Source: Branchiostoma lanceolatum | Taxonomy: Eukaryota; Chordata; Leptocardii; Amphioxiformes; Branchiostomatidae | Reading direction: 5' to 3' | DNA length: 64,000 nucleotides | Assembly (NCBI RefSeq): GCF_035083965.1 | Contig: NC_089738.1 | Location: 12,302,734 to 12,366,733, forward strand | Shown: one piece after another, positions 1,934 through 61,990 of the stretch | Position numbering within the stretch: the first letter of the stretch is position 1 | Layout of the letters: each line of letters begins with the position of its first letter | The notes under the pieces: generated by a model | What the model was told of the DNA's origin: nothing | Seen by the model: the letters and a program-made list of their open reading frames with translations, nothing else | The model's database searches: none | Position numbers and translations under genes: made by a program

Positions 1934-4896
1934 AGAAAACTGGAGTCCGTGCTACTTTTATCATATGATTTTATTCATCTATTTCGCACACATACCCCTC
2001 TGATGCTGTCTGCTGTTAACACGTTATCGTCCATAACCAGGATGTACTGGTACCGGCCCGAGAGGCTGGGGAAGTTCATAGCGACGAAGGCCGCCTTATC
2101 CAATATGGTGGAACCTGGAATGCGAAATAATACATGGTAAATCAAGATCTTGTATACCTTGTAGTGCCTAGTGGTACATGTGTCAGTGAGTTTCCTTGCT
2201 GTTTTTGTAGCAGGTACATTTTTGCAGGGGGTGTGTTGCTAGCCCTTCTCCTTTACGTTCATAAACCTTCATTTTAGTCCCTTCCGAAAGATGGGTGCAG
2301 CCCCAACCGAGATGTCTTGGCACAAGATTGAGCCAGGGTCTCCCAGTTAGCTACTAATTAAAACGAGGAGCTCAACTGTGAGGCTGCTACCAGTTGAGCT
2401 AATCAAGATACTCAACAACCCTAACCACAAGATCCACTAAAACCCTATTCATGCTGAGCCCGACAATTGTAGATTTGCACATGCTTGTTCTGTATGTTGG
2501 CCCTGACAATTATAGGGTTGATGGTATATCAAGAATGCGTATTGTTGTTAAGCGAAGTATCTAAAATGAGCAATATCAAACTGATAGCCTTTGCTTCATA
2601 GGTGTCTGGGCACTTCGGCAGTGGGGGTATATTTTTGCTCTGGAAATTCAGCAGGACAAGGGTTAACACCTTGGTGTTAAATTCATAAGATCTCAGAATG
2701 GTACTGACCGTCAGGGACCCAGAGGTTGTTGTATGCCGTCTCCTGGTAGAACTTGATGAACCCGGCACAGAAGCCGCCCGTCATCAGCAGGGGCAGCAGG
2801 ATGGCGAGCCAGTGGAACCGGCCCACAAACCTACCGACTCTGCGGAGTGAAGTTATCAACAAAGTAAAACATTTGTGAATGGTGACAATGAGTTGGTCAC
2901 TAGTTAGAAAGCGTGCTGTTTGCATTGTATAATCAGTAAACTATCTTATGACAAAACATAGCCAGCTAGCTCAGAACTTGAAATTGGTCGATAACGTAGC
3001 ACAACAATATCTCGTCCACTTTTTGTATTATTTCAAAAATTGATATTCGCTCTCGTGAGGATTTGATTTGCAGACTACTGTGGCTACTTATGCGGAAATT
3101 GTACGCATCTATGTCTTTGAAGTGGAGAGCACTAGAAGGAGAAAGACAATAGCCAAGTGAACAGCAATACTGGCCACGGTCAGCGCTACGTTACATTTTT
3201 CTGGCAAAGACAAACTGTGTAGGTACTTAGTTTGAGCCACTGCACAACAGAGTGGACCCCTAATCTTATCCATAAGAGTTATGGACTCTTAAACATGCTT
3301 GAAGTATGCCTCTTTTCAAACGCACGTCCCTTTCGAAAGTCTCCTTTGACAGCGAAAGAAAAACTTTAGGCAAACTCATGTCTCGGTGACTGACTTCTCC
3401 TTTGTTTCAAGGTCATCTGATAGCCGCATGTTTTAAGTGTATATTCTAGTAGGCTGCGACCAGACTGGCTTAGGTAAGCGCCCCAATGTTAAGCAGTGGT
3501 CATACCACATAGTTTGACTACCCTGATTAAACATAACATAAAACGATAAATGAATAATACAATGAATCAATAGATACAATTGTATCTGTGTTTGAATGTA
3601 TGGTAGGATCGTAGCGTGGCGAAAGGGAATGCACGAAGAGAATGTACATTTTACGAATAAAGTATTTGTCAAATACAGGACAAAAACGACCCATCAATTT
3701 TCTGTATCACTTGGTTTTTAAGAATTACCAAACAGGAATACAGCTCAACCCCATGAACAAATGAATATAGAGTATACATCACTCAATAAAATCATTCAGG
3801 CGCATTATCCAACTAATTGGTTGGTTTTAACAATATTAACACGTTATCCCTTGGAATGCAACAAAATAGTGCTTGCAAACAATACCTTCCAATGAGTTTA
3901 TCATAATTATAATTAATAATACATCTCTAAAGATGATATAACGTTATACTACGTAACCCAGTTTGCATGCAACCTTTTGTATTGTTAGTCATATCGGCTT
4001 ATAGTTATCGACTGAACAAATTCAATATGTTTTGTATGATGTGGTCTGATTTTATCACCAATAACAATGTTTGACGTTTTTAGTATAGCGACAAACGATG
4101 ATCGATATGGCCATTCACAAGGATGATTCGTTTTGTATACAAAATTCAACCGAACATACAATATGGCAACCACAAAGCTACTAGAACTCATAACAGTGCA
4201 CGAAGAGACGGCAAGGAAGGCGAATTTATTCCTTGTTAAAGCCATGATACTCAAACAGATCGAGGGTTCTCTAAAATCTTTCTAAAGCTGTCATAGGACA
4301 GACGTAGTTGTGACTCAATTGGGCACAGCAAGAATATACCATGACCATACCGACTATTCAACTACGAAGGTAAACAAAGATGGTGGAAACCAATACCCAG
4401 TACATTCCAGTTCCTCTTAAAACATACAACACAAGGAAAACTTCCCCCTTTTCCCCAAAAAATGGTCTACCAGACTTGAACACTCATACACATGTGTTGA
4501 ACAAGAAAATTGAACCTAAACGCCTTACGCTTAACGTACGTATCTTTCTGGTGAATAGAGAGAGGTTGAAACAGTCTTCTTTGCCCCCCTCCCCTAACAG
4601 TACAAAAAGTGGGGAATGTGATCTCACCTTGTGAAGAGTTCCTCCAAACCGTGCACCATAATGTAGCTGACGGATTGTAGACAGGCTTGGAAACACATAC
4701 AGCTGCATTCGCAGGTGCCCGAAGGACAACATCGCAAACAACACCTGCTACAGCAATGCCTCTGTTCGGAGTTTTCGTCTTTGTCTGGAACTGAGTCTAT
4801 CAACACCACCCCGCCATTCTGTTGGTCTACTTTCTCCGAGACAGTCGGTAGATGTCCGTTTGTGTCAGACGACTTCTTCTCGGTGTTTTCCGCCAT
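794..4896 (-). CDS. PTCHD3-like: Patched-domain (PTCHD3-like) protein, 5' part
   Basis: Five exons join in frame on the minus strand: 4896-4628, 2839-2709, 2114-1996, 1532-1459 and 913-794. The gene continues beyond the left edge, so only about 171 residues are visible. The N-terminus is cytoplasmic and has 11 cysteines between residues 48 and 72. It is followed by LEELFTRVGRFVGRFHWL, a first membrane segment (LAILLPLLMTGGFCAGF) and the family motif LWVPDGS. The first extracellular loop contains FPSLSGRYQYILV and NGVCFSTSLLELWSFNET. This order is typical of Patched-domain proteins (PTCHD3 and nematode PTR relatives), RND-type multipass membrane proteins with a sterol-sensing domain. That domain would lie outside the window. 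The cargo is unknown; sterol or lipid transport is inferred from the family. The start is the first ATG of the long first exon, which opens into a CpG-rich 5' region. It is transcribed divergently from the GH31 gene at 6593. Confidence 0.85.
1060..1345. repeat. Dispersed inverted-repeat element
   Basis: The two ends are related in opposite orientation (...CAGGCC...ATCAAGCAACGATCG... and ...GCCAGGGTAGTTGCTTG...). Relatives occur at 38875-38970, 39335-39480, 51105-51400 and 51645-51700. The form suggests a non-autonomous DNA transposon. It lies in the intron between exons 4 and 5 of the Patched-domain gene. Confidence 0.5.
1797..1936. repeat. GA microsatellite with AT-rich leader
   Basis: A short TA-rich tract leads into about 115 nt of GAGAGA with a few interruptions and a terminal G run. 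It lies about 60 nt from the donor side of the third Patched-domain exon. Confidence 0.85.
2300..2405 (-). repeat. tRNA-derived SINE head fragment
   Basis: On the minus strand the sequence reads TTAGCTCAACTGGTAG, a good RNA polymerase III A box within a tRNA D-arm, followed by a degenerate B-box region. It does not fold as a complete tRNA, so it is read as an old SINE head inside an intron. Confidence 0.4.
3951..4018. repeat. Copy 1 of a ~65-bp duplicated segment
   Basis: Begins CGTAACCCAGTTTGCATGCA and is about 90% identical to 5479-5541 in the same orientation. One copy is in intron 1 of the Patched-domain gene and the other is upstream of its first exon. It contains the palindrome TTTGCATGCAAA-like core. 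Confidence 0.7.
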
Positions 4897-5478
4897 GGTT
4901 CCCTTCTACACTGTTCGGCTTGTCGCAGAAAGTGCCTAGCCACATACGTCGTATGTACGACACGGTTACGACAGCAAATAGGCACACTCGTAGGAAAGTC
5001 GCGGATGCGCCATACACATTTCAGCCGTTTTGTGACGGGACAGGTTGTCTTAGTTCGTTGTCGATGCGGTTGGTTCTGTCACAGATTCACTGAAAAATAC
5101 GTCGTATGTGACTACGGCTTAAACATTTCTTCCTCCACCGCTACCGCTGCTATGCCTCACTTTCTACGCACCAGATATCAGTGCCCGGTAAGCATTGTTG
5201 TCTGTCTAGGAGGTAGTAAGATCGCGTTTCCTGTAAGCTTTATACCCGGCACCTACAATGACAACACACCTTGCAAACCGTACTGACCTGTATAAGGGTC
5301 AACGTACTCTCCATAATAAGCCATGCGTATCGGTTAAGCTTTTGACAACAAAAGAAAGGGAGTTAGCCCCCGGCTACATAACACCTATAGGATGATGTCA
5401 CAACAGATGTTAGCGACATTCTCTCTGTGTCACTGTAATTTATACTAATTCTACGCTTAGCTTATTGGCAAAAGAAAA

Positions 5479-6592: not shown

Positions 6593-9500
6593 ATGGCCGC
6601 GAGGTTAACGTGTCCTAAATTCTTCCTGCATGTCCTGTTATGGACGATCCTGTTCACGACATGTCGTGCGTTTACCGTGAGACAGACAGGCGACGGAGTG
6701 GACGTCCTTCTCGACGGAACGTTGCTTCTACGCCACGAGAGAGCCAACCCCGCCATCTTGGTCGGGACTGGCACCACGATTTTCCGCGAGCTCCACGGAA
6801 ACTTCAACATCTCCGACACCGTGGACTCAAAAATTGCGCTGCCAGACGTTGACGTCACGCAACCCTCTTCTTCGGAGTACAGGCTTGTCTTCTCCTCTGG
6901 AGGAAACTATCAGGTAAACGGTTTTAAAGATCACAAAGTAACTAGTACATGATTTGTGGAGACATACTTATAAGTAATTTATTGCTACGCAAATGTTGTC
7001 AACTCTTGAACAATGGTCACAGGGGTCAAAAAGTCACTTAGCGCATTATGGCTTTTACAGTATTCTGGTTCACACGATAAGAAAACAATTTTCTTTCTCT
7101 TTTAATCCTTGTAGTCGTGTGAAATATCTATGATCAAGGGGTGACAGCAAATACAATGTAGGCAGTGGGTGGTTGATACTCTATTTGACCTGTCAGGTAC
7201 GAATAAGGTCACAGACGAGTTCAAAATAAGGCTGGAGTGGTTCGCGTCTGTATCTATATTTAGAGAGACAAAGATAGAAAAAAACACACATAGCAGGTTG
7301 AAACGTACAATATACCATACAAACATGATTGTGTAAAACTGGACCCTATATCTGCTTGGAGATCAGGCTTTCCGCTAATGTTGTGAAGAAGGTGGACAAA
7401 AAATGCTTTCCTTACAAATGTGATATGAAAAACATCTTGTGTTCAAGAACATAAAAAACAGGATTTTCAAAGTAGTTTATAACTTTGATGGAAATATAAA
7501 GGCATTTAATATATGAATTTAGAATTACAGGGAAAGCGAAAAACCGTGAAACATATATATAGAAACGCCTTTTCCCACATTTCTTTGTTATCCATAGCGT
7601 GTCACTTTGGAAATAATTTTTAGTTGCAACAAATGTATTTCTCTACAGACTGAGATGAAACTGATGACTGGGAACGAGGGGCACGATCACGTGATGAACA
7701 TCTCGATCCCAGTTGATTTGGACAGGACGTGGCTGAGACTATACGCTGATGACGGTGAACATGTCTATGGCGGTAAGAGCCAATAGAAAGGGTCGACGTA
7801 GCTCTTCTCTTAACTTTTACAGGTGAAAACCCACTCATCAAAACGTGGGGCTATTCATTAGCCACTGGCTGCAGGAGGGGTCTTCTTTGCAGGCAGACTG
7901 CCTCCAAAGAAGACCCCCCCCAGTGATGTACGTAGAACATCAGATAGATCAATGGACTATACATTTTTATTTTACTTTTTTGTCTAGGTTATCGTGTCTC
8001 AGACTGTGTGTTGCCTTAATTAGCATTCGGGCACGAGTTTGCAAATAAATATTAAAAATTATTAGCAATTTGGTCATCCCTGTCGCTAAAGAGATACTCA
8101 CAGCTTAATAGAAACAAATTAATTGAAAATTAATTTCTTTTGCAATGACAATTTTCCGTAGGTGGCGAGCAGTTCACCTACTTCGACCTGCGCGGACGGA
8201 GTTTCCCGATCTGGACCCGGGAGCAGGGCGTCGGTCGGCAGCCGGGCACGTTCGTCACCGACGAGGCCAACAGACGCGACGGCGGCGGGGGAGACTACCA
8301 CACCACGTACTGGCCTCAACCAACCATTGTGTCTTCGCGGAGGTACTTCTGCCATTTTACTACGACAGATTACATGGTCATGGACTTCACCGAAACCAAC
8401 GCCCACGTTATACAAATATGGGGCTCGCCGGGTGTAATCCACTTCGGCTCCGCCGCCACCTTTCGGGAAATCTCGGAACAGATCGGAGAACTGCTCGGGA
8501 GGCAGCCGGAACTTCCCGACTGGGTGCACGACGGCGCGATTCTCGGCGTACAGGGAGGGACAAGCGAGGTTTTGAAGTACTTAGAACAAGCTGAGGGTCA
8601 AGGGGTCAAGGTCAACGGTCTTTGGATCCAGGACTGGGCGGGGAGGATCAGAACGTCGTTCGGAAGACGACTGTTCTGGAACTGGGCTTGGGACGAGGAT
8701 CAGTACCCGGGACTTCGAGAAGAAATCGTCAGACAGAAAGCACGAGGGGTCAGATTCCTCGGGTACATCAACCCTCACCTCAACAAACTCGGGGATCTCT
8801 ACACAATCGCGGATTCACGCGGATACTTCGTGAAGAACTCCACGGGACAGACGTACATTCAAGACTTCGGCGAGTTCTTCTGCGGGACCATCGACCTGAC
8901 CAACCCTGACGCTTTCCAGTGGTACAAGAACGAAGTCATCGTCAAGAACATGATCGACTTGGGACTGACCGGGTGGATGGCGGACTTTGGAGAGTACCTA
9001 CCGCCTGACATGGTGTTCCACAACGGCGTGCCTGGGAGAGAGATGCACAACCATTACCCGGCACTCTGGGCCAAGTGCAACAGGGATGCAGTAGAAGAGT
9101 CTGGCAAGCTTGGAGAAATAGGTATATTGTCTTTTTCTGCTAAGTCCATAGAAATTTGAAAAACTTTGTAAACTCTCTATGTTCGTTTTTTATTCGAATA
9201 TTCGTTTTAGGCGACTTGAAAACTAAAACAAATCCCTCGCAAAGTAGACTTTTCAAAAAGAGTTAGATGTATTCATAAGGCAATCAAAACAAAAAGTTTG
9301 AAACAAAATTGAATCACTTTCCGATAATACGTAGACTTTAAAACAACAGAATGTATTTACTAGATACTATTGCATCATTGCTGTGCGACTTTCAGTGTTC
9401 TGGATGCGGGCTGGCTTCTCTGGCAGTCAGAACTATTCCGTGATGTCCTGGGCCGGAGACCAGTTCGTTGACTACAGCCTCGGCGACGGGCTGGCCTCGG

Positions 9501-12331
9501 TCATTCCCGCGGCGCTGTCTCTCGGAGTGTCCGGTTACGGACTGTCTCACTTCGACATCGGGGGCTTCACGAGGTAGGGTTATAGACCGATCCTGACTGT
9601 CCATAAAAATTAACAGTTTAACTAATGATATCATGTCAGTCATTCGGTTCGACCAATGAGTGAGTAGCTTCATGTCCGTCAAATATTTGCCTTTTTGATG
9701 TTTTTATTTTGCTTTTCTATGTTTTGACGGAGGGGTGTTGGGCTATGAGATCAGCCTATTGTCATGTCTTTCAGTATCGTGTTGCATTGTTTTGATGAGA
9801 TATGTAAATAAATTCTAACATAAAGAATAACACATTTAACTTATGAAAATATCACCTTTGACCCGCGCATGCCCTGTTGGATCCATGAAAGGCTTATTGT
9901 CGTTCGTTCACAGCTTGTTCGGGATAACTCGTACGGAGGAGTTACTGATCCGTTACACAGAGATGGCGGTCTTCACACCGATGATGCGGACCCACGAGGG
10001 TAACCGACCAGCCGACAATTGGCAGGTAAAACGTTTTTATTTCTTTTGGCTGTTTATGTTTGACAGTTGTCTCTTTACTTTATGGTAGATCGGGAGTTGC
10101 GTTTGCTTCCAATTTAAGAAAGTAGCCATACATAATCTCCAAGCAGATATAAGGTGGCTATAAAACCGTAGATCTGCTTGGAGATTAGACATACCTACGG
10201 CATGACTTTATCATGGCTCACCAACTCTCACTTTATATGGACGGCGCACAATACCGACTTCTTACAGCCTTTGACCCGCTGATGTCAAAATCGCAAATTC
10301 GGTTACTCTGTTTCCTTGAAATAAGATGTTAAAATCATTTCTGCCATAATGCATCCAAAAATCTTTTTTCTTAAATCTGTTGTAGCAGCGACACCTAGCT
10401 GCAATACACAGTCAATATTGCCCTGAAGAAGATGACATTCGGTCACCGAAACTTCGGTTTGCTATTGACGCATTGGTTGTGTACGAATTGATTTGTTATC
10501 TTCGCTAACGTTACTGTATAATGTATATTTCCAGGTGTACTCGTCTGACAGCACGTTGCAGCACTTCGGTCGACTGGTGGGTGTCCACGTCAGCCTGAAG
10601 GAGTACATCCGGGAACTCGTGCAGAACAACACCCGCTACAACTTCCCCGTCCAGAGGCCTCTGTTCTACCACTACCAGGATGATCCAATGGTAAATTGTA
10701 TCTTTTATTACCTAAATGAACCTAGGTATCGTTTTGGCGTGTATGTATGTGTAAATTGTGTATGTATGTATGTGTATGTGTATGTGTATGTGAGTGAGTG
10801 TGTGTGTGTGTGTGTGTGCGCGCGCGCGCGAGTGTGTGTGTGTGCCTTGTGCGCGCGCGCGCGCGCGCGCGAGTGTGTGTGTGTGTGTGTCTGTATGTCT
10901 GTGTGTGTTTCCCATAATTTGTCTAGTTTCGTAGAGGCCATGAATGAATTATGAGGACATTTGGTTCGATCAATGCGCACCGAGATGGACCCCTTCTCTT
11001 TTCGATAAATGTGATGGGTCACGCTCGAGTTATGGCTTTCCTCAAACACGGGACCTCCATTTAACGTCCCATCCGAGAAGACCTCCTTAACATTTCAACA
11101 CCTACATGTGGAAATAGGTGTACGAGATTCGAACCAGGGATTCGAACCCAAAACCTTCATTTGATTTTAGGTCAACTTCCGTAACCACAAGACCACCTTG
11201 CCACCTTCATAATACCCGTCTTCTCCCCAGGTGTACAGCATCAAGTACCAGTACCTGTTCGGCCCGGACGTGCTGGTCGCACCTGTGTACAGGGAGGGTG
11301 TGGACACCTGGCAGGTGTACCTGCCTGAGGGGGACACCTGGGTTAGCGATGTTCTCTTTCTATTCATTCACTACAAATTCCTTTACACAGTATAGTCTCG
11401 TGCAATGCAAATAATGATGGAAAGTATTTTAGAGAAACCGTTTTTGTTGATATTTGAGTTGAAAATGCTAGAAGCAATAATTACTACATCAAACTAACGA
11501 CGATGTAAAAAAAACACTTAACTGCATGTCTGGCAAAATGCATCTGATCATGTCCACATGCATACATAGTTTTGATGGAAAGCTAGTTATTTAAGTGCTA
11601 AAAGGAACTAATGAATGCATATTTCTCGGCTTGAAAGATGATTGCGGTTATAATGAAATATCATCATCAAGTTGGTTTAAATTCTTACTTTGTTAACAGG
11701 TTCATCTGTGGGGAGACAGTAGCTATGAAGGTGGTCAGACGGTGACTGTTGACGCACCACTCGGGCAGCCGCCATTTTTCTTCCGAGTGTCCTCCAAATG
11801 GGCATCCCTGTTCAGGACAGTTGCTAGTGGTACGTATTGTGACTTTGAAAATTCTCGCCCTCTAGTTGTACACAGAGAGAGAGGGAGTAAGAGAAAGAGA
11901 GGGAGAGGGGAGGGGAGAGAGAGAGAGATAGGGAAATGGTAGGGAGATGGAGAGAGAGGGTGATTTGGGACGTTTTGGATGACAAAAATCTATCTTTTTT
12001 ACTTCATGACTTGTGTGTAGAACGTTCTAGAGTGATGTCCACAGCCACCATACATCGGCAATTGATTGATCGTTTGTTGATTGATTGATTTATTGATCTA
12101 TTGCTCCCACTGACACATACGAAATGTCAAAGAAGACAAGTTTTCTACTTAAGGTTTGATTTCTGTGACATTTTGCTATTTTATCTTCATAAGAGAAAGA
12201 TGATAATTTTTTCGTTTTCATTTTTAGACAACCCTCTGCCAGTGAATGGAACGGGTCTCCACAGCGACATCCTGCCTTACGTCACAGTTCTCATCGCCAT
12301 AGCTGTCTTCTTCTGGTTCCGGAATCAGTGA
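6593..12331 (+). CDS. yihQ-like: GH31 sulfoquinovosidase-like alpha-glycosidase, membrane-anchored
   Basis: Nine exons: 6593-6913, 7649-7772, 8162-9121, 9396-9573, 9914-10025, 10535-10690, 11231-11341, 11700-11829 and 12228-12331 (731 aa, all phases consistent). Residues 1-26 form a signal peptide. GGGEQFTYFDLRGR and PIWTREQGVGR are hallmarks of the YihQ branch of GH31. The nucleophile is D423 in WMADFGEYLP and the acid/base is D490 in MSWAGDQ. Relative to E. coli YihQ (numbering from memory), the sulfonate-contacting Q288, R301 and W304 match Q305, R318 and W321 at identical spacing, while Y508 is F526. The expected reaction is release of sulfoquinovose from sulfolipid glycosides. The last exon adds a hydrophobic segment (about 712-728) and a short tail. 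The bulk would therefore be lumenal or extracellular, tethered by its C-terminus, unlike cytosolic YihQ. A digestive or lysosomal role for algal sulfolipid is an inference. AATAAA lies at 12418. Confidence 0.9.
10137..10186. repeat. Short hairpin element with ATCTCCAAGCAGAT termini
   Basis: AATCTCCAAGCAGAT and its reverse complement ATCTGCTTGGAGATT face each other across about 20 nt, giving a near-perfect hairpin in a GH31 intron. Single copies of the same motif occur near 7352, 37972, 39604 and 40760. Confidence 0.7.
10384..10500 (+). repeat. Hammerhead-like dispersed repeat, copy 1
   Basis: Starts with GCAGCGACACCTAGCTGC, then CCTGAAGA (core CUGANGA), a weakened stem II and CGAAAC. The usual GUC is changed to TTC. 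It is in sense orientation in a GH31 intron, about 80 nt before the exon that starts at 10535. Confidence 0.6.
10738..10905. repeat. GT/GC alternating purine-pyrimidine tract
   Basis: Runs of TGTATG, GTGTGT and two blocks of CGCGCG alternate for about 160 nt in a GH31 intron. Long GC/GT alternation is the classic left-handed Z-DNA-prone sequence. Confidence 0.85.
10960..11215 (-). repeat. tRNA-derived SINE
   Basis: The minus strand carries GGGTTCGAATCC (polymerase III B box) preceded by GTGGTTACGGAAGTTGACC, a tRNA-like head. The body shares TTTCGATAA, ACACGGGACCTCC and ACGTCCCATCC with the copies at 41590 and 44270. It sits directly before the exon at 11231. Confidence 0.75.
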
Positions 12332-12417: not shown

Positions 12418-12423
12418 AATAAA
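12418..12423 (+). terminator. Poly(A) signal of the GH31 gene
   Basis: A canonical AATAAA lies 87 nt after the stop codon at 12329-12331, just after an A-rich run. It is the first such hexamer downstream, so it is the likely cleavage and polyadenylation signal. Confidence 0.5.
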
Positions 12424-15059: not shown

Positions 15060-15910
15060 CACGACCTCATACCTTCGCCAAATGATTTTAACCTTTATGA
15101 CTGACGTATCAGGAGTATTTCTCATCAATTATGAATCATACCAGTTGATCTTCTTCACCCGAAAAACAAAAGTCACATAACTTCCAAATGACACAAGTAT
15201 GAAATTGCCATCATTTACCTGTATGGAATTATAGTAGTTTCTCATTAATTATGCAAATTAGGCCTACATTTGCATATTTTTATCTATCAAAATTCCTCAG
15301 TAACAAATGTCACATATTTCAAGTCATATCATGGAACACAGCGGGTTTTTACAATTGTCTCATTGATTATGCAAATTAGAATCTGATTTGCATAATTATC
15401 GTCCAATCATACAAAGCATCACGTAGGCTATCTACATACCAAAAATCATGACCATCCATCAAGCCCATCTTGAGTTATAGTATTTTCTCATTAATTATGC
15501 AAATGAGGTCTTCATTTGCATAATTGATATCTATTAATATTTCTCTCCTCCTCAGTTACATATGTCACATGTTTGAGAGTCCTATCATGGAATTTGGCGG
15601 ATGTATAAACTTTCCTCATTAATTATGCAAATCAGATACTGATTTGCATAATAAGTATCTAATCATGTACATCATCGCTCAAGCTATCTACTTACCAAAA
15701 ATCATAACCATCCATCAAGCCCTTCTTGAGTTATTCCCTTTCAAAGTCTTAACCAAAACCTGCTCCTGCAGTTCCAAAAAAGCCGTTAGGGGGCCAAAAC
15801 CTTTACAACTTACTCTCTGTCCAAAGAGCTATCTACCACTCAAAAATAAGTTCCATAGCTTGTCCAGAACACGAGATATCGAAACAGGAACTCTGTTAGG
15901 TGTGTTATGA
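15060..15910. repeat. Tandem repeat array with paired ATGCAAAT octamers
   Basis: Four units spaced 118-128 bp each hold ATGCAAAT and its inverse ATTTGCAT about 16-18 nt apart (first motif near 15251, 15369, 15497 and 15624). Each pair can form a hairpin. The octamer equals the POU/Oct binding sequence. Flanking text (TCATTAATTATG, CCATCAAGCCC) is shared among units. Confidence 0.75.
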
Positions 15911-16739: not shown

Positions 16740-19700
16740 TTATAAGTCAGTAAGAACTGCCGCATTATTGTCGTATCCGTGCATCTCTACGTTTCTTCCA
16801 GTGCCCTTGCTTCTCTTTCGGGTGACGAGGCATCCGATCATCAAGCCGACGAGAAGCGTTACCACGCCGACGGCTCCCATGATCACGAACGGCTGCCAGG
16901 TCTGAGTCCATTCCACTGGTTGTCCTTGGCGACCTCCAGGACTCTCATCTGGTTTAGTGGTCTTTACAACCTCTGAAAGATAAGAAAATCAGCAAATTTA
17001 TAGAATAGGTGCACGTGTGTTCTTGCAAAAGTCACAAATAAACGTTTAGTTACCTACGAAGTATGAATGCTTCTAACATGACTAAACTATGCTTCTAGTA
17101 GGCCTTTCAATGGCCAGGACTCCTAGCAGCTTGGTGGACAACACCTCTAAGTCAGGATAATTAGAAATATCGTATTCTAATAATGTATGCAATTGTACCA
17201 ACATCGACTATTCATCGTCAGAATGAGAACTGTCTGTTACCATAGTGTTGGAAGCTGTCATGTGACAGAGAATCATAAGCTCTTACTATTGGACTGATTT
17301 TCATAGTGACAAAGAATCCTGAGCTCCTACATGTATTTAGTAGCTCTTTGAATAGAAATGGTTATCTCTAGTTAGAGGTGCATTGCCATAGGCTCTTTGG
17401 GAGGAGGTCCAATCAGCCCGTGGCAGCAAGAGAATGCGTAACACAGCCTACGGATTCTTCTGTCATGATGGAGCAAGTTTCATTCATAAAGCAACTATCA
17501 TTATTCTCTTGAAATAATTCCAGTATGTAAGACATACCGGGCGTTCCTGTAGTCTTGGTATCGTCCTGTTGTTCCCTAGATTTGATAGTGAAGAAGGCCA
17601 TCATCCCTTTGTCGAAGTGATCCGCCACGTGGCAATGGACGATCCACGTTCCAGGATTCTCTGGCCTCATCCGGGCAGCAGCAAACTCACCTATAGTCAC
17701 ACGACAGAAGGAATCATGATCAGAATAGGTAGAATACGGAAAGCCGAGATCGGTGCGATGGACAAGCGATCCCCGGCCGAGCCATAGCAACGACTTTCAA
17801 AATGGTACATACTACTTTCTCTGCTTAGCTTCTATCAATTGGAAAATAGTATAATGTTAGTTGAAAACACACCACTAGTATGTATTAGCCCCATATATAC
17901 TAATTGCACAAACTCATTTGGCCCAAGGGCTGTTGAAGGGGAGAGAGGCGCCGCCCTAGGCACTATCTGGAGCGGGAAGGACTTTATCTCTAACTTTGAC
18001 AAAACTATGAATCATATAGAATGCCTACAGCTGCAGCAGATTGAGAGAATGCAGATCGTTTGTTCCACCACGATAGAGGCTACTGTGATTGATTGTCGGT
18101 AAAATTACCCATGGTCCTTTCCATTTGTGTACAAAGGAGGTGAAGCCTCGCAACCGTCATTGTTACTTTCGTTATTTGTCCGTTAGTTGGTAGTTAATTG
18201 GCAAGAAACATTTGATACATAAGATTATGTCAGAAAAATCAAACCTGGGAAGAGATCCCAGACGTCTCCACGATGGTGCCTCCTGTTGTCTGTGGTGTGG
18301 ATGAAGGTCTGTCCGTGGAAGTGCACGGTGTGAGTGTCCACCTCCGTCCCCATCCCCATCAGGTACCACACGACGTCCTCATCCTCAACCATCTCCAGAC
18401 CCAGGAGGTTGTGCAGTACGTAGCCGTTCACAGCTGCGAGTAAGAGAACTGATTAACTGCATATCCATGTATTCATTGATACAAATAGAGCAATCACGGC
18501 TCCAACTGTGCATGCGCAGCGAAATGCATTGTGGGTAATGTATCAAAGATACATCGAAGATCAAAGGCCCATAACTTGTGAGCAGTTTTTGTCTAGCTAG
18601 ACAATGATTAATACATATAAATGTCAAGACGTCTCAAAGGCCTTCACCTTTTATATGTAACCCACAGTGTCTTTCCCTGCGCATGCGCAATTGGAACCAT
18701 GAAACTCCTTATACGGTAGCCAGCGCTATTGTTTTTAACGAAGCTACCAATGATTTACCCTAGAAATAACTGTTGCTATGACAACATATCAGAAAGAAAA
18801 AGGTATAGTCATACCAAACATATGGTTGGCTTCAACGAAATCAGCGTTGTCCGGGTCCACTTGAGCTGGGGTTCCACAGTGATTCTGGATGTTCTCGTCC
18901 AGGTACCAGCTGTTACTCTCCTCCGTCCCCGTAAACATCATGACGAACTCGCGGTCCACGTCTGATCGGCGTCCGTAGGCACCGAGCGTCCCTTGCCGAC
19001 AAACCACGAGCGGACCGATGAGACCCGAACTGGTGTCCTTGACGGGATCGACGCTGGAGTAGTAGGCCCACGGGATGCAGTTGTCTGATTTCTGTGTAGG
19101 ACCCGCTCTAGGTGGGACGAACCATGTGTATGCGTACACGCCATTTGGCTCCACGACATCGTCCCCTTTAGATACCCCCGATGTCTTGTCCTCATACAGC
19201 GCCCCCTCGTCCCACTTACTGTACAGCAGGCCGTGAGGGTGCATGGAGTACGGATGTGACGCCATGTTCTTGAAGTAGACCACGATGACGTCACCTATTT
19301 CCGCCTCTATCATTGGTCCAAGCATACCGAGGTGCTGGTCCCTTGGTCCTCTCTGTTTTTGGACTGTGAAGGTCGGATCTGTGTACTCCCGATATATGGC
19401 CTTCTTGTACTGTGATCCAATCATGGTCGGTCCTGAATAGATCCGGTCGTAGAGAGAACTGCATGTGAAGAAGAACATTAGCATATCATAGCCACCCTTC
19501 GTATATCAAAATAAAAACTATTCCGTATTAGTAAGTAATACAATCAAATGTTAAACTTTCTTTTCCGCCCAACCGGAACAGAGGATGATACAAACTTCCA
19601 GGTACATTTTCTGCGCTGCCGGATGGTCAAGAGTCATACGTGAGTCGGTCAGTGTTTTTAAAGAAGGCAGAAGTGCTGGTCGAAAATTAATTCCTACCAG

Positions 19701-22700
19701 ACATACATTTGCACTTTGATAAACAATAATGTACTGTTTATTGAACGAAACTAAAGAGTCCCACCCTAATGCACTTCTTGGATATTAAAGCTATCGGTAC
19801 ACAACCAAGTCTTTTATTCACACCGACGTTTCGGTGACTGTCTGTCACCTTCCTCAGGGCAATACTGACTGGTAATATTTCACACTACAGCTAGGTGTCG
19901 CTGCTTACAGATGCGGTTCCGAACTTAATGTATTTACATGTATACGCAGTTATGCGGTGTATACAATGCGATCCCAAACGTAAATGAGTGTATGTCATGC
20001 GTACATGTTGTTCTTTATGACCTCACCTGCTGTCACTAGTAACGATGTCTCCGTAGATGTTTCTTTTGTCCACCGCGTAGTCCCATTCCTCTTCTACAGC
20101 AGCGATGTAGAATGTGCGGATGGTCCCTGTGCTGTGGAACCAGAACTGTGGACCGTCTGCACCGCAGGTCTCCACAGACACTTTGGCCTTCATCCCGGCA
20201 CTGTAGTGGTCATTGGTCACGCATTTGATAGCCCAGTCACCTGAAACATGGAAACAAAACAAATTAAGATAATTAGTTTGATGGTATCGGTACTGAAGCT
20301 ACAGACACATAAAACAGAATTGAATGCATCTTTTACCAGTTAGACTTAGTCTAGTTTTTCTATAATTTGACATTCCTCATATTGTAAAACACAACTTATT
20401 GGTATGATGAATCTAAATGGGATTCTATCTCCTGGTTTAGCAGCCTGTAAATGGCCTTGCTGCTCTGGTGGTGGTAACGATTATGTTCTGGTCAATTTAC
20501 AACCAAGCGTTTGCCGTGAGCTTATTTTCGTTCAAAACGAAGCATAAAAGTGACATTTCAGGCATGCTTGTTTCAAATCAAAACAAGGTTTCAATAGACG
20601 TAATGAGATTACGTCTACAATGAGATAACGTTTCGTACCTTCGTTATCTGGCACCATCTCCAGAGTCTCTGTGGACCCAGGGAAGATGGAGATGGAGTCC
20701 CTGGTCTGTCCGTGGTACTGGAAGGTCAGACCGTGGAACGCCAAGGTGTGGATGTCAACCTCGGTCCCCAGACCCATGACGTACCACGTGACGTTGTCGT
20801 TTGTGCACATGCTCAGTCCGGGCAGGTTGGCGTACATATATCCGTTGATGCCTAGTAAGAGAGGTTTTAAAAAGTTGTAAATCATACATTTCTAATGAAG
20901 AAATAACGACGACATTAACCTGTAATACATTATTTCAGCTTTTCCAAACCTATCTCAAAGAAGGCAAAATTAACATTAAAACGCACCATGCATAAGATTT
21001 GACTCTGCAAAGTCTTCATCTTCTGGATCGGCGACAGTTCCAGACCCTGTAAAGTCCGCAATGTTTTCGTCCAGGTACCAGCTCTGATTCTCATCGTAGA
21101 CAGCGAGCATCAGAAAGAACTCTCGGCTGGAGCTGACGTCACGCTAGTAAGCAACAGAAAAAACCCTCATACCTTTTTCTGCATACTAATTGCGATCTTT
21201 GTCTTATTTGTTTTCAGCTGTTATCATTCTCTTCTTACGCGTAATGACTAGATAAGAAAAATCCTCTTTTGGTCCTATCTAGCTAGTAATATTACAATAT
21301 CAGGGCGAAACTTGATACATAATTCCCTTGCCGTCATTGAGGCACCGATACAAGCTTAACAAGTATAGTATGATACTACTAGTATTAGCTCGCCGCTTAG
21401 TTTTTTCTAAATCTAAAAACAATCGATGATAAATGTGCCTTGGTCCTTGGTAAGTCAACTTACCCGATTCCCTTCGCTGTCCAGTGTTCCTGCCTTACAG
21501 ACGACCATGGGTCCGACCAGTCCGGAGTAGGCGTCCTTGACCAAGCTGACCCCTGACCGGTACAGGTTCACTAGACACGTGGGGTCCCGCTCTGTTGGCG
21601 CCACGGACGGAGGGACAGTCCACACATAGGTGAAGGTTCCACCGGGCTCCACACTTCCACCTGATGACTTGTTACCTGAAAAATGGTACAGCACACTAGA
21701 TTTAGCTTTGGAAATTCCACTGTAGCATCTAGAGCAAGGTACGCCTTTCTTGCAGTCGAAGAATAATCAATCGACGATGTTATAAAAGCAACTACACCAG
21801 TAACACAACAGTGGATCATTACTCACCACTTCCATATGACGACCCCTCGTTCGACTTATTGTAGAAGACGCCGTGTGGCTCGATGCTGTACGGCCTGTCC
21901 GCCATGTTTTTGAACGTCACCATGATGGTGTCCCCGACCTCTGACCTGATGACCGGTCCCAGCATGCCTAGGTGCTGCTCCTCCTGAGTGCGGTTCTTGC
22001 GCACCGTGAAAGTGGCGTCGGTGTATTCCATGTAGAGAGCTTTCTTGTACTTCCCTCCGATACGCTCCGGTCCTTGCTCAAAGAATACTATCGAATCGCT
22101 GGCGACAAAGGAAGTTTAAATCAAGTATAATAATCATGACGGGTAAAAAAATACAATTCTAGACTATTAACTCGACAAGGACTAACCGGGGACGATACAA
22201 ACATCTAATAACCTTTTACTACTACCAATGTTCCGTCAATGCAAAACTATTACCTGCCGTCCTTGAGAAGACTCCCTCCTTCGAAGTGGTTTATCCCGGA
22301 AGGTGCGTAGTCCCAGGTCGCCATCTCTGCTGCGATGTAGTAATGGCGGACAGTCCCGTCCAGAGGTTCTTCGGGAACGGTGGCACCACAGCCGGCCACG
22401 TTGTACAAAGATTGCATTCCAGCTGAATATGGAACCATATACTAGCATCATATAGTACCGTGACGTTGACTATGATTAGCTTAAGATGAGACACAAGTTA
22501 AAATGAGCTGATGTACATTCTATGGCAAAGAATAGTGGAAAACCATACACACTCGCTGTAGCCGCATAGTTCCCGTTTAGAACTTTATTCAAGCCTAATA
22601 CATATAGCACGTTCTATGGTTAGTAATTTCAAGAGAGAGAACATGTCATTTTGTTGCAGCGCAGCCTGATCTGTTGATCCAGATTTTTTAAAGATCCCTC

Positions 22701-25700
22701 AACAGAGATGGGGGTCGATACCGACTACCGGGCACCTTTGACCCGTTGCTGACGTCACATCGCCACCCATGTCACGTGACATAGGCTTCTGGTCTGATCA
22801 ACTGGAGGAGGACCAAAGGACTGGTCGAAAGCTTGTTGGTATGTGCTTGTGTACGGAACTACCGTGTATTTTTCCTATACAGATATTTCTTCCATTCGTA
22901 CTTGTAAGACCCTCACCCGAAAAATGGTCTCCTACTTGACAGCTGACCATCCACTCTCCAATGTTTCGTGGCTCCATAACAGCGGTCGCAAAGGATGCTG
23001 GGAATATCCCTGCTGTGTCAGTTCTGAAAGGTTGTGTCAACATTTAAGTTTTAAAGACATGCCAACCAGCATTTGTACAATTCTATATATATATATGTAC
23101 CTGATATAAGTCACGACTTAGTATATAACAAGTGTTTAAAAGTGCTATGAATTGCTCAAATTAACAATAAAACATTTGTTAAGATACCTGTGAAATTGGA
23201 TGCTGACTTCGTGACCCCGGAAGTGAATGGTGTGGATGTCGACCTCTCCGCCCCTCCCCACCAGGTGCCACGTGACGTTCTCTCCCACACACATGTCCAG
23301 ACCGGGCAGGTTTCCGTACAGGTAGCCGTTTATACCGTGCATCAAGTTACTCTCCTGGAAAAGTAGCATCAATCATTAGAGGAAAATACAGTCTTGGTGA
23401 AAAGCGACGCGCGTAGGGAAAAACATAATCACGGTCTAGCTGTTTATCTATGCAAATCTAAAGTTTAAATTTTCTTCCATTGTTCCTGATGACTTGTATC
23501 TTGGTAGAAAATGAAATGACGCGTTTTCATGACTCCCAAAAAGGTTTTAATGTCAAAAATCTGTAAAAAAAACTCGTTACCAGGCAAAAAAGGTTGCCTA
23601 GCAACAGTTGCCATGGAACAGCAGGTAACTTAAGGAAATTTTCATTGGCTCTACCCCTAGAATTGTTTCTGTTGTTGTATAGAATGTTTATGCCAAATTT
23701 CATGCTTTTACCATCATGATAGTTTGCACAATTTTTGCACCGATCGCCAAGACGATAATGTGTTTTCACCTAAGGAAACTCTCACATACCTGAAAGTCTT
23801 CGTCTTCCTTCAGGGCTGCTGCCTCAGCTTCGGTGACGCTCAAGTAGCGTCCGATGGTTTCATCTATGTACCAGCTGTTGTTCTCGTCTAGGATGCCGAA
23901 GTTCAAGACGAAGTCTTTGTCGACTCCTTTTTGCTTACCGTCGCTGCCAAGGTAACCTGCGAAAGATAGAAGGGAAGGAAATTTAGACTAGTGTGAAGCA
24001 GTGAGACATGTTGAAGTATACAATTGCAAAAAGCAGCTGGTTAGAACATTTATCATCACTTCGCGCATGTATTTACTCAGTATGCGTCTTTGCCCACAAT
24101 GCGCCTTTACTCACCATGCGTCTTTGCCCACTATGTGCCTTTACTCACCATGCGTCTTTGCCCACAATGCACCTTTAATCATCATGCGTCTTTGACCACT
24201 ATGCAACTTTACTCACCATGCGCCTTTGCCCACCATCCGTCTTAACCCGCCGTGCTTATCTAACTACCACGCGCCTTTACAGAGTTGATGAACGTAGGTA
24301 GTGCATGGTCTACCTACACGTGCATGTCCATGTGTACACACATAAACATGACAGCAAACAAATCTTTGACCTTAACATGCAACAGGAGGTTTACATACAC
24401 ACCTGGTTTGCACGTCACTATCGTTCCCGTCAGGCCTGCGTTCATGTCCTTGTCGGCAGCGACGTGCGAGTGGTACATCCACGTCAAACATGGCGGATCG
24501 TCGTCAGCGGGAGCCTCGTTCTGAGTCACCTGCCAGGTGTACACATAGGTGCCGCCCGGTGGTACATGGTCGTCCGATTTGTTCGTACCAGACGTGCCGT
24601 CAAAGTAAAGGGCTCCTACATGTACATGTATGTGAAAGAACACCCTTCTCAATTATCAGTGTTGGTACACAAATATCGATATCTTTATTAGCAATGATTA
24701 GTTAGTTCGAAGTTTTAAGTGCGCGAGTGCAGTGTAATGCACTGTGGGTGATATGTCAATGTTGAAGGCCCCAGGCCGTTCTATGTATGATTATCGACAT
24801 ATGACCTACTATGTCTTACGTTGCAAATGTGCAATTAAAACGGCAAAGTAGCTTTTTTGGAGGGTTGGTTAGCCATATGTGAGTGTTCAGCGTAACGGGT
24901 GAAAATAAAGTGGCAGAACATAGAAACACAGCGGAAGTGTTCAAAAAACACTTGCCTTCACTGTTTTTCTCGTACAGGACTCCGTGAGGATGCATGCTGT
25001 AGGACCGTGAAGCCATGTTCTTGAAGTGCACAATGATGTTCTCCCCCACTTCTCCGCTAATGGTAGGTCCCAGGTACCCTAACCATGATGGGTGTTGTTT
25101 CTCCACGGTGAAGGTTGCGTCCGTGTATTCCCGGAACAACGCCTTCTTGTAGACGCTGCCGATCCGGTTTGGACCCGGTTCTAAGAACACCGCTGCGTCA
25201 CTGAAACGGACAAGGAAAAGGCATGTCTCAGTTCAAATCTTCGAACGTAAAGTGCAAACCTGGCTTCTGATTGAAGCCTTAGTTGTGCCTGTCTTACACA
25301 AAAGATGAGCCCTTTCATGATTTGTTGCCGCCTCAGTATCGTCTTCACCGTTATTTAAGCCCCTATGACAAATTCAGGACATTCACACGACTTGCTCCAG
25401 ACCACTTCCCAACCAAGGTCGAAGCTGGGTTGGAAGTAGCCTAGCTAAGTTTGCTACTCTGATTGAATCCAAGCAGAATAGGACTTTTCCGATGTTGAAT
25501 GGTACAGACGACTTTTAAAAACTAATAGACAACCTTGGCGACCAACTCCCAACCACAGATGACCTTTCTCACGACTAACTCGCACCATGGTCTGCAGAAA
25601 GTCGGGAAGCTATGGTCGGCTATGCGAGACGTGCTTAACACCTAGGTAAATAACGAAAAGTCACATATTGATCCCATTGTTGAATGAACGGCTACATACA

Positions 25701-27268
25701 TTTACATTAACCATGCCATACATACCATACCTGTCTACGTGACCTAAAACAACTTGAATGCAAGGTGGATCAAAACACAGGAATGCCCACACAAGAAACC
25801 TGGATGTTGCCAGAGCTGTCACTCCAACACAATAGAAATGTCACTCCAGCAGAATGAGAGCGCCTTTTGTACACCTATTTTTGCCTTAAACATTATCGAT
25901 TGATGTCGTTGCCGTATATATGTCGACGCAAAATTTAAACTCTTGGCCCGACACTTCTCTACTCCCCACCTATATATCCCGCCAAGCTTATATAGCAGGG
26001 TCCCGGGGACATTCTTTGATGTACCCGGAATTATATAGAATTATATCTTTATCTATAATGCTATTGCTATATTTACATTGACTCGCACGAAAATGTGTCT
26101 GTCTCTCCGAGCTAGAAGAAAATGTGTTTTTTCGTCAAAACATTCAAGAAAAAGTGACCAAAGTCTCCAAATATATTTATATCTAGCGACCTCTAGAATG
26201 CGACTGTCCCTCTTCCTAGGGCTGTATCATCAGGGTTTTTTTTTTTTTTTTTCAAAACAAAAACCACGCAGCTCGCGGACAGCCAAGAAAATTCCTGTAA
26301 TCCGTGCAAACTGCACACATTCTACTATTAGGCTCGCTTCCTCAGAACGTCGCCAAAAATGGCACCAGGAAAAGGTCGACCTTAGAGCCGGGCGGACGAT
26401 GCCCCAGTCCAGTTTACTCAGGTCATGTCTAGACCGTAGTAGCTGCCCCAGCTGAAAGCTTAGTAGCAAAACACCGAGACTTCAGTTACTTTTCTGCATG
26501 TACTCAGATATCATTGGTCATTGTAACTAGTAACTTGAAATGTGAAACAACCGTTACGTATACGATGTTCTTCGTCGTGGCATATTCTTGCTGTGATGAC
26601 ATAGTTACACAAACGTGATGCTCTTATACAATGTACGGCTACCCCCTAATACGTTACATATTAAAACTTGAGGAAAGCAACCAAACGCTACTTAAGTATC
26701 ATACATACCTGCAGACATGTTTATTAACATGAAGGCAAAGGTTAAAGTTGTACGTGACTCGATTTCGAAAAACAATAACTGAAAGATACATAAATACCAA
26801 CCTAAAGCATCAGTATCAACCACTTGAAGTTTCAGGATCTGTCACGCTTATGCAACCTCCGTAAATGAATAAACTGCTGTGTATCTTAGGGCCCGGTCAC
26901 ATACCGTCGTATAATCGTCGCAATATTACAAACTATGGGCATTCTTGAGATAATATATGAACTAATATGTCCTGCAAATTGCATCTGTCTTGTAACGGAA
27001 AAGGCTTTATTCGATCCTTGGAAGGGAAGGAACCCTACACTTTTCGAAAATATCTTTTATCAAAGTCGAGGCTTAGCTATGAAAGTTTATATGATTACCT
27101 GTCCGCAGAGATGGCAGTCTCGGTGATCTTGTTGAAGCCTCCAGGTGCGTAGTCCCACCACACTTCTTTACAGGCGACGTAGTAGTGTCTTTCTTTTGTT
27201 GCCGCATTTGTGCACGCTATAAGGTAGCCGCACAGAAGAACACAGACGCTCTTCAGGAAAGCAGACAT
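16740..27268 (-). CDS. HEPH-like: Hephaestin-like membrane-anchored multicopper ferroxidase
   Basis: Sixteen exons: 27268-27099, 25200-24956, 24615-24403, 23956-23790, 23354-23188, 23023-22917, 22422-22254, 22098-21827, 21675-21464, 21143-20987, 20851-20639, 20240-20027, 19458-18815, 18433-18245, 17690-17538 and 16972-16740 (1174 aa). It has a signal peptide (1-22) and six cupredoxin domains in three pairs. The trinuclear-cluster histidines are all present: MHPHG (H127, H129), MYHSH (H187, H189), HTVHFH (H1018-H1023) and HCHVADH (1065-1071). Each of domains 2, 4 and 6 has a complete type 1 His-Cys-His-Met set. A single transmembrane segment (about 1126-1148) and a basic cytoplasmic tail follow, as in hephaestin. 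The expected role is Fe(II) to Fe(III) oxidation at the cell surface during iron export. Oddities: exon 2 ends in a GC splice donor, and the domain 6 iron-site His is Phe (F983). An upstream in-frame ATG at 27292 is possible. The neighbour at 32364-41969 is a paralogue. Confidence 0.93.
18498..18698. mobile_element. MITE with GCGCATGCGC-type terminal inverted repeats, copy 1
   Basis: The left end reads GGCTCCAACTGTGCATGCGC and the right end GCGCATGCGCAATTGGAACC, which are inverted repeats around a ~160-nt core with no ORF. A second copy is at 35118-35282, and diverged copies are at 24718-24843 and 56050-56215. It lies in intron 13 of the hephaestin-like gene. Confidence 0.75.
19800..19912 (-). 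ncRNA. Hammerhead ribozyme-like repeat, copy 3 (best match)
   Basis: On the minus strand: ATTGCC, CTGAGGA, a perfect 6-bp stem II (GGTGAC/GTCACC) with a 5-nt loop, GAAA, then CGTC and GGTGTGAAT. Both core strands fit the hammerhead consensus. Stem I can form from GCC/GGU plus AUU/AAU. Stem III would be only the palindrome ACGU, as expected for a minimal or dimeric hammerhead. It is in sense orientation in intron 12 of the hephaestin-like gene. Activity is inferred, not shown. Confidence 0.55.
24065..24285. repeat. 18-bp minisatellite
   Basis: About twelve diverged copies of CACCATGCGTCTTTGCC and CACAATGCGCCTTTACT alternate, giving an 18-bp unit and a 36-bp higher-order period. It lies in intron 3 of the hephaestin-like gene. 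Confidence 0.8.
24718..24843. mobile_element. Diverged MITE, copy 3 of the GCGCATGCGC family
   Basis: Shares GTGCAGTGTAATGCACTGTGGGT and TATGTCAA-type text with the copies at 18498 and 35118, but its terminal repeats are degraded. Confidence 0.45.
25380..25560. repeat. Dispersed repeat shared with 62510-62670
   Basis: Shares CATTC, ACCACTTCCC, CAACCAAGGTCG, GCTGGGTTGG and TCCAAGCAGAATA in the same order with 62510-62670. It lies in intron 1 of the hephaestin-like gene and has no coding capacity. Confidence 0.6.
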
Positions 27269-29040
27269 GGTGGAAGTCCCGTGTACTGGCAAGTCAAGCT
27301 ACGACACGAACTACCGTTTACGCAATCCCACTTACGTATGTCCCCATAATGTGTACAATATGTGACTAGTGCTAGCAAACAGACATTTAGGGTGCGCCCG
27401 AATCTAGGGATGAAAGTCCATCGGTACAACTCGGTGCGTGAAGCGGCGTCACATAGATGACAGTAGGAGAAAGACGTATTGACGTAACCTAGTGACTTTA
27501 CATAATGAGATGGCAAAATACTTTTTGTATTTGAGGTTGTATTGGAGATGTTCAGGTCGAAGTCTTTGAAACATCTAATCTCTAAGTGTTTATTAAAGGT
27601 GTGCCTGAAATACAAGGTAAAACGTGTGTCTGTATACTCGTACGTACCACCAAAACGTCCGATCGGACTTATCTACAGGCGTATGGTGCCATAATGTATA
27701 TGCATAGGCTATGTTGTTGTTTTTGCTATCTGGTGTCAGATAATAATTTTAAGATCCTTGTAAGATAAAAGTAAATGATAATTGATAATATATTTATTAC
27801 AGACTCAACACACTTTTAACAGTACCATGTAGAAACACCAAACATATTCTATATTCTGAAATTGCTTTATTTTACCCTGCATTTGTACTTAGTAATGCTC
27901 GAAACTATAATCAGGTCCTAAAATACCATGCAGCAGCCTCTAACTGAATTTCAGATCGTACGTTCTTTGGCCTTTGTCTGTGCATTAGCGAGGAAGTATA
28001 CGACTTAGTGTTTTTTCCTGCCACTAAAAGTTTCACCTTAATTCGGGATTTTCCGTCATTCCATTTACAATCTTGGAATTATTATCTTTTTTTTTAATTA
28101 AACGTGTTGCAGGATTCTAGTCAGTTTGTATGCCAAAAGGGGTATGTACATGTACTCCCCGCCTTGAATGAAGACCCTTGAACGAACAAGATTGAATATT
28201 TGTATAACCTTTGTCTGGATAACGTAACTTTGATCCATGTTGTAAAGGTATGCTTTGAAATACAGCGACGCTTACAAGCTTACAAAATGCAGTTTACGTA
28301 ATTTGTATCAATGCAATTTGCTTGAACAACTACATGAGATATCATGGACAAAAAACGAATTTTTTTACGCTTTGTGTGTTTTGTCGTCTATTTAGTTTGG
28401 CGTGATATTCCCATTATAAAATCAAGAATAACAGAAATCCAATTTAGGACGCAGCGAGGTCGCAAGCGTGTCGCGGGCCCAGTGAAATAGGCATGTCTCA
28501 CTTCGCCGCGACCTGTTGGTCGATCGTTTGCAACTGACATTCGTAAACTTGTTGAGAACTGGTTGCCAAAGGACGTCAATGTCTTGTCTGAAATGGCGAC
28601 TGTTTTCAAAAGTTCTATAAAAACGCAAGTGGCAAAATGCCGACAATGGACGCGACTAAGACGCGAACTAGTCTCCCATATTGGCCCCCTATTAGTATAT
28701 ATTACGCTTCGTTTCGAGCATGGAAAGTGACTCGAGATCGACAGAATATATGTCGAGGTAACACCTATGTCGGCTAGAATTATGTATTTCACCCAGGCAG
28801 GCTACGTGGTATCTTAACTAGCTAGGTAGGCTGGGATATCAATGTAATTTGAATAGGCAAGGATATTATGCAATCATGGGGGTTGCTAACACACTAAGCG
28901 ACTTCCCACTAAGACTGGATTTACAAACGCATTTCCAAGCACATTAGTGGGCTCCGAGTACTCCGAGTACACTCGGAGTGTGAGTTTACTTGGAAACGCG
29001 TACGTAAACCAGGCCAAGGTAACTTGAAACCCGCACTCAC

Positions 29041-29155
29041 CTATCATATTTGTTGTGAGGCTAACCAGAACGAAGACAACGCGCAGCCAGTGGCGCTCAC
29101 AATGCACCCGGGCCTCACGGAAGGTCTCCATGCTAACTCCGGTGCCCAAATCCAC
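29041..29155 (-). CDS. Possible orphan first exon with hydrophobic segment
   Basis: A minus-strand open stretch starts with ATG at 29155 (or 29131) and ends exactly at a consensus donor (ATAG then GTGAGTG). It encodes 38 residues ending in WLRVVFVLVSLTTNMIG, resembling a signal or anchor sequence. I found no partner exon downstream, and its phase (1) does not fit the start of the hephaestin-like gene at 27268. It could be a lineage-specific gene, an alternative 5' exon or chance. Confidence 0.2.
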
Positions 29156-31879: not shown

Positions 31880-32250
31880 TTGTTTAACATACGTAACGCA
31901 ACGTAACATACATTTTACGTTAACGTGGTGCGTTTGATGCGTTATGTTAACGCGTAGGACTTGCATACGTTACATTAACGTCATGCCTTATGATAACGTA
32001 AAGGACTATGTTACGTTAAGCAGTGCGTTATGATAACTATGAATACGTTATGTTAACGTAGTTTGTTAATAGTATGATGACTTGAAGTGGGGTACATACC
32101 ACATTAACATAACCCATTTAAGTACGTAATTATAACCCCAAAACGTGACGTTTACGATAATACGATATTTTGATCTGAAAATGCGAGGACCATACGTACG
32201 TCACGGCAAGCATAGACCCAAAAACGTGACGTTTTTTACGTACGTAATTT
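31880..32250. repeat. Cluster of ACGTTA/TAACGT palindromes
   Basis: Degenerate copies of GTTATGTTAACG, ACGTTAACGT and AAAACGTGACGTTTT-like palindromes recur about every 20-40 nt downstream of the ceruloplasmin-like gene. Confidence 0.6.
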
Positions 32251-32363
32251 TGACAGGGAAATGATGCCATATTAATGGTCGCTCAATGCATATGCATGGT
32301 CGCTCAACGTTCGCCACCTTGCGGTGGAAAGGGTGTATAACCGTGAACTTTTATCGTTTGCGT

Positions 32364-37782: not shown

Positions 37783-37813
<31 letters not shown>

Positions 37814-61600: not shown

Positions 61601-61746
61601 AGCAGGTGCTGGAAGTGTAGCCGCCAGAAGAAAGCATTACAATCTTATAATTATAACTAATATATAACATATTCGATGATATAAGGGGTAGGCGCCACAG
61701 TGTATGTTTTCTGGTATGATCTCAAATATATTTCAATTTCAAATTG

Positions 61747-61990
61747 GTAGCCTTGAGTGTAGTTGTAGAAGTGACACCAGTGTGGTAGCCTTGAGTGTAG
61801 TTGTAGAAGTTACACCAGTGTGGTGGCCTTGAGTGTAGTTGTAGAAGTGACACCAGCGTGGTAGCCTTGAGTGTAGTTGTAGAAGTGACACCAGTGTGGT
61901 GGCCTTGAGTGCAGTTGTAGAAGTGACACCATGCAGTGTGGTAGCCATGAGTCTAGTTGTAGAAGTGACACTTGTGTGGTGTTTGGCTAC
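61747..61990. repeat. 38-bp minisatellite, about six copies
   Basis: Copies of GTAGCCTTGAGTGTAGTTGT plus AGAAGTGACACCAGTGTG start at 61747, 61785, 61823, 61861 and 61899, with a last diverged one near 61941. Related sequence occurs at 12440-12770 beside the GH31 gene. Confidence 0.9.

Follow-up and report, generated by a model that had tools for sequence, protein, structure and literature searches.

Among the organic sulfur pools of photosynthetic membranes, sulfolipid is a major one; its sugar is presumably freed mainly by bacterial sulfoquinovosidases (SQases), the step being assigned to microbes. A GH31 gene in the window (the whole 64-kb stretch of DNA analysed here, to which all positions refer) raises two questions: whether an animal encodes such an enzyme of its own, and whether the pocket of this enzyme could still accept the sulfonate. 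To our knowledge, no animal enzyme of the YihQ/sulfoquinovosidase kind has been characterised. Some invertebrate genes have, however, been labelled automatically as YihQ-like or sulfoquinovosidase-like in public databases, hence the gene is less surprising than it might seem. The fold and the family are already known; what would be new, as far as we have seen, is an animal, apparently membrane-anchored member with the pocket motif QQRW-F.

Gene structure and genomic setting

Nine exons, joined in frame, yield a product of 731 residues without an internal stop (Table 1). The gene runs from an ATG to a TGA and has exactly the extent given in the initial annotation. All eight introns, 274–735 bases long, start with GT and end with AG. 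The exons are the sole tblastn matches of the GH31 protein within the window, and GC3 of the coding part is 0.72.

Table 1. Features of the GH31 gene and of its surroundings in the window.
Feature	Position	Strand	Content	Basis or remark
Cysteine-rich frame	4624..4905	-	93 aa, no Pfam match	in head-to-head arrangement with the neighbouring GH31 gene
In-frame stop upstream of exon 1	6398			sequence
Exon 1	6593..6913	+	start codon, hydrophobic leader (about residues 1–26), start of N-terminal beta domain	ATG, GT donor, hydropathy
Exon 2	7649..7772	+	N-terminal beta domain	AG/GT borders, frame kept
Exon 3	8162..9121	+	remainder of N-terminal domain, first half of TIM barrel; Q279, Q305, R318, W321, predicted nucleophile D423
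Exon 4	9396..9573	+	W471 (=F453), predicted acid/base D490, F521 (=S503), F526 (=Y508)
Exon 5	9914..10025	+	Y542 (=W524), H555 (=H537), THEGNRP block
Exon 6	10535..10690	+	end of barrel, start of C-terminal domain; PF21365 from residue 603
Exon 7	11231..11341	+	C-terminal beta domain; PF21365 at residues 603–683
Exon 8	11700..11829	+	C-terminal beta domain
Exon 9	12228..12331	+	linker carrying a single NGT sequon, then a hydrophobic segment (about residues 710–728), short RNQ end, TGA stop
AATAAA, possible polyadenylation signal	12418..12423	+		87 bases 3' of the stop
Tandem repeat	15229..15734		unit 256 bases
Ceruloplasmin/hephaestin-like multicopper oxidase pieces	18000..42000	-	many, exon-like; perhaps several tandem genes
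Tandem repeat	24072..24236		unit 17/34 bases
Probable animal PLAT/lipoxygenase gene	49587..51006	+	PLAT domain, lipoxygenase match under the Pfam cut-off	
Tandem repeat	61745..61980		unit 38 bases

Among the sequences compared, those nearest to the product are bacterial, the highest identity among the 138 rows of our comparison being 52% (L090, 582 columns), as would be expected if the locus were contaminating bacterial DNA or had been inserted from a bacterium very recently. The introns argue against this, their GC content being 0.38 versus 0.57 in the exons, and so do the hydrophobic segments added at both ends of the protein; moreover, a search of the plasmid collection with exon 3 found nothing close at the DNA level. 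In a scan of 20 frames, multicopper oxidase domains were found above the cut-off in four and just below it in one (18.8–40.5 kb), a PLAT domain in one (49.6 kb) and a lipoxygenase match below the cut-off in one (50.2–51.0 kb), with nothing in 13. The best matches of the minus-strand frames at 18.8–19.5 and 33.6–34.1 kb are ceruloplasmin and clotting factors V/VIII, and the PLAT piece has matches (E 3e-5) in two lipoxygenases that we take to be coral proteins, 11R-lipoxygenase and allene oxide synthase-lipoxygenase. Since these neighbours read as animal genes, contamination is unlikely, and given the introns as well, we rejected contamination or a very recent insertion as scarcely credible.

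Placement within GH31

The GH31 TIM-barrel and C-terminal domains are both recognised above their cut-offs (PF01055, 149.6 bits; PF21365, 80.2 bits), and PF13802 lies below its own (25.3 bits, cut-off 27). Among the 58 solved-structure sequences listed, the best six are all SQases (YihQ, 769 and 767 bits; 8r56, 757; 6pnr, 678; 5ohy, 661; 5ohs, 659), the other 52 scoring at most 155 bits. The match to 5aed covers residues 27–696 (E = 3.4e-230), and 330 of 678 aligned residues (49%) are identical to E. coli YihQ (b3878; 5aed, 5aee, 5aeg, 5oht), including 166 of 319 in exon 3 and 41 of 60 in exon 4. The match to YihQ is a whole-length one. BmSQase (8r56) is matched over residues 26–693; it carries HHSDIGGY where the window protein has SHFDIGGF. 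The SQases of Agrobacterium (5ohs, 7ofx, also 5ohy) and E. rectale (6pnr) are matched over nearly the whole length at 659–678 bits. The PDB titles of 8r56, 5oht, 5ohs, 5ohy and 6pnr name SQ-type ligands: 8r56 is BmSQase with covalent SQ-aziridine, the E. coli and E. rectale enzymes are listed with IFGSQ, and 5ohs, whose sequence is that of the Agrobacterium entry 7ofx, is an SQase with pNPSQ.

An ordinary animal alpha-glucosidase, of the GAA, MGAM, GANAB or MYORG kind, would have the GH31 barrel in common with our protein. The solved enzymes of this type (neutral alpha-glucosidase AB, maltase-glucoamylase, lysosomal alpha-glucosidase, MYORG, sucrase-isomaltase), however, align in their catalytic part only and reach at most 91 bits (MGAM, GAA and SI at most 69) against the 769 of YihQ, so that the animal alpha-glucosidase type is not the closest one. 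On these scores we rejected this reading, which we consider highly improbable. A predicted structure of exon 3 (319 residues, pLDDT 73, pTM 0.65) points in the same direction: among the best 50 of 834 matches, PDB chains of SQases take the first 23 places, BmSQase leading (E 2.5e-34 to 4.9e-32, query TM-score 0.80–0.81), whereas the next GH31 chain has E 1.8e-15 and the other GH31 chains listed have TM-scores of 0.58–0.75. This is a weak check, because the model was built from 13 SQase-type rows, its rmsd to the SQases exceeds 5 Å (3.7–7.8 Å for the other GH31 chains), and Phe526, discussed below, lies outside the modelled piece.

The protein also scores 893.1 bits with the NCBIfam equivalog PRK10426 (titled alpha-glucosidase; cut-off 553), compared with 1247 for K-12 YihQ, 957 and 980 for two other SQase-type rows, 867 for the bacterial sequence L116 and 241 for YicI. 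Two genes with Gln in place of the presumed sulfonate-binding Arg301 of YihQ, L114 and L115, pass the cut-off too (969 and 965 bits), hence passing is no proof of a sulfoquinovose pocket. None of the 14 control genomes, E. coli included, had a PRK10426 match above the cut-off, which fits poorly with the passing score of K-12 YihQ itself; the E. coli control may be a strain without the gene.

Together, these scores and the trees place the protein with the YihQ/sulfoquinovosidase branch and apart from ordinary alpha-glucosidases, among which a placement would have refuted the initial annotation. When two alpha-xylosidase-type rows (E. coli YicI and an archaeal YicI-like protein), the only non-SQase outgroup, were added, it fell among the YihQ-like rows with support of 100/100 in both trees (55 rows, the odd L006 included, and 53 rows). 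We may conclude that, by sequence, it firmly belongs to the YihQ clade. Membership in the functional class is not firm, because one presumed binding element, Tyr508, is absent.

The predicted sulfonate pocket

With YihQ positions numbered from b3878's own sequence, the Q305, R318, W321, D423 and D490 named in the initial annotation are all present as numbered and correspond to Q288, R301, W304, D405 and D472; Q279 (=Q262) and H555 (=H537) are kept as well. We take R301 and W304 to be the sulfonate-binding Arg and Trp of YihQ, positions 262 and 288 to be those paired in SQases as Q/Q or K/E, and Tyr508 to make a water-mediated sulfonate contact as the fifth residue of the sulfonate motif QQRWY or KERWY. 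The bacterial-type pocket proposed initially therefore stands as regards the named Gln, Arg and Trp and both catalytic Asp; it is not identical, since Tyr508 is replaced by Phe526 and three further positions differ, F453W (W471), S503F (F521) and W524Y (Y542). Phe526 and the hydrophobic segments at both ends are points that the initial annotation did not contain.

These substitutions are rare. Among the 138 rows Tyr508 is found in 132, S503 in 131, F453 in 136 and W524 in 136; R301 is present in 115, W304 in 136 and a Q/Q or K/E pair in 136. By motif the rows divide into QQRWY (n = 85), KERWY (n = 29; presumably the type of the Agrobacterium SQase), QQQWY (n = 18), QQQWF (n = 3), QQRYF (n = 1) and unrelated (n = 2), and the QQRW-F of the window protein occurs in none of the 138. 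This set omits L133 and L127 (whose coordinates show them to be the genes of L008 and L017), L117, L120, L125 and L126 (genes of L116, L114 and L115), the unrelated L118 and YicI (L119). It contains L124, the non-SQases L006 and L007 and, judging by coordinates, two genes counted twice (L059/L091, L062/L114). The sole other row pairing R301 with Phe508 is L132, where W304 is also replaced, by Tyr; this QQRYF match, from genome G508, is listed with one internal TGA.

Of the 111 columns that are near-invariant (at least 97% among the 95 rows with R301, W304 and Y508), 104 are kept in the window protein. The seven lost are 115, 137, 205, 453, 508, 524 and 583, position 503 being below the threshold, and this number is the highest among the 96 rows with R301, equalled by L004. 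Such losses might be read as the mark of a paralogue that no longer catalyses and persists for binding or as a scaffold; with both catalytic Asp and the remaining near-invariant columns retained, we regard this as improbable.

A change of specificity is the main rival, because Tyr508, and perhaps its neighbours, presumably serve the sulfonate end. The protein would then be a former SQase with the fold and the catalytic pair kept and the pocket re-tuned to another substrate, e.g. another C6-anionic or a plain alpha-glucoside. It is in line with this that positions 508, 503, 453 and 524, near-invariant in the comparison rows, are all four changed, that the alpha-xylosidase-like L007 has Phe508 together with Trp453, and that three rows with Phe508, from two genes of one genome, have lost R301. 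On the other side, nothing is lost at R301, W304 or the Q262/Q288 pair, and the bacterial L116, which has both S503F and W524Y, retains the complete QQRWY. Re-tuning is thus an unlikely though sizeable alternative. A Phe526 pocket that still accepts the sulfonate is probable, though its binding may be weaker or its preference altered.

Among the rows compared, L116 is the only bacterial gene in which S503F and W524Y occur together, which hints that the two positions change together; unlike the window protein it keeps Tyr508 and Phe453. The two proteins have ten rare residues in common, the next best row having six (L006, L007 and L088 not counted). The Bacillota MAG that contains L116 (G006) has three YihQ-like genes with two sulfonate motifs, L114 and L115 having QQQWF. 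In Spirochaetota genomes, L101–L113 (open frames of 737–793 aa) have R301 replaced by Gln (QQQWY), with W304, Y508 and both catalytic Asp kept; the specificity of these proteins may differ. Eight QQQWY-type rows in one tree, L088 included, form a single group. L006, from plasmid p98 of Entomospira culicis, is a distant GH31-like protein in which the acid/base Asp is replaced by Arg and the HSDIGGY block is missing.

Proposed function and relatives

Hydrophobic stretches are located near residues 5–29 and 710–728, only RNQ following the second, for which the 19-residue mean hydropathy is 1.94 (at 710) and which has no counterpart in YihQ. The leader and the C-terminal stretch suggest that the protein is probably exported and tethered to the membrane, the anchor probably being either a transmembrane helix or a GPI signal. 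The six N-glycosylation sequons fit export and are unexceptional: the mean in 116 other rows is 2.0, and four of those have six or seven.

Taken together, a membrane-held animal GH31 enzyme of the YihQ/sulfoquinovosidase branch, cleaving alpha-sulfoquinovosides outside the cell, seems to us a reasonably likely reading. Its substrates would be alpha-sulfoquinovosides, for instance sulfoquinovosyl glycerol, which is the head group of sulfolipid freed of its lipid. Cleavage would follow the retaining GH31 mechanism, with D423 as the nucleophile and D490 as the acid/base, and the sulfonate would be held by R318 and W321 with Q305 and Q279; these roles we carry over from work on YihQ. Activity on sulfoquinovosides is likely. 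We infer export, the site of action, a location in the gut, algae as the food source and a filter-feeding host, perhaps a lancelet. The more specific reading, that this is the animal's own exported, membrane-anchored SQase, with a pocket remodelled to QQRW-F by coupled aromatic swaps, which frees sulfoquinovose from algal sulfolipid heads, is in our judgement an even call. If it is true, grazers would gain a direct route into the sulfolipid sulfur pool. The natural replacement of Tyr by Phe at the sulfonate site also makes it possible to test cleanly on which residues the recognition of sulfoquinovose depends.

A specific bacterial relative was sought and not established. L068, from a Ruminococcaceae MAG, is the partner of the window protein in all four trees that hold it, with support of 89, 92, 86/95 (in a group that also took in the very long row L006) and 99/92. 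Both sequences are long branches, the first tree being flagged for a possible false join, and without L068 the bootstrap for the place of the window protein is at most 61%. An AU test does not reject grouping the window protein with L116 instead (p 0.148). For one tree 43 of 117 rows were dropped by hand, further trees were built on hand-picked subsets of 57, 55 and 50 rows, and L001, L006 and L007 were left out of an 86-row comparison.

The pattern HFDIGG followed by Y or F gave two matches in 398 genomes of the phylum of G006, namely the gene of L116 and a site without tblastn similarity. Protein searches of draws of 291, 398 and 398 genomes yielded no further row with S503F or W524Y among the rows read; a first scan of genome contigs had yielded nothing, and Rfam gave no match. 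In a phage collection 39 records were found, the five listed having at most 50.1% identity, and the viral contigs contained one locus, at 37%.
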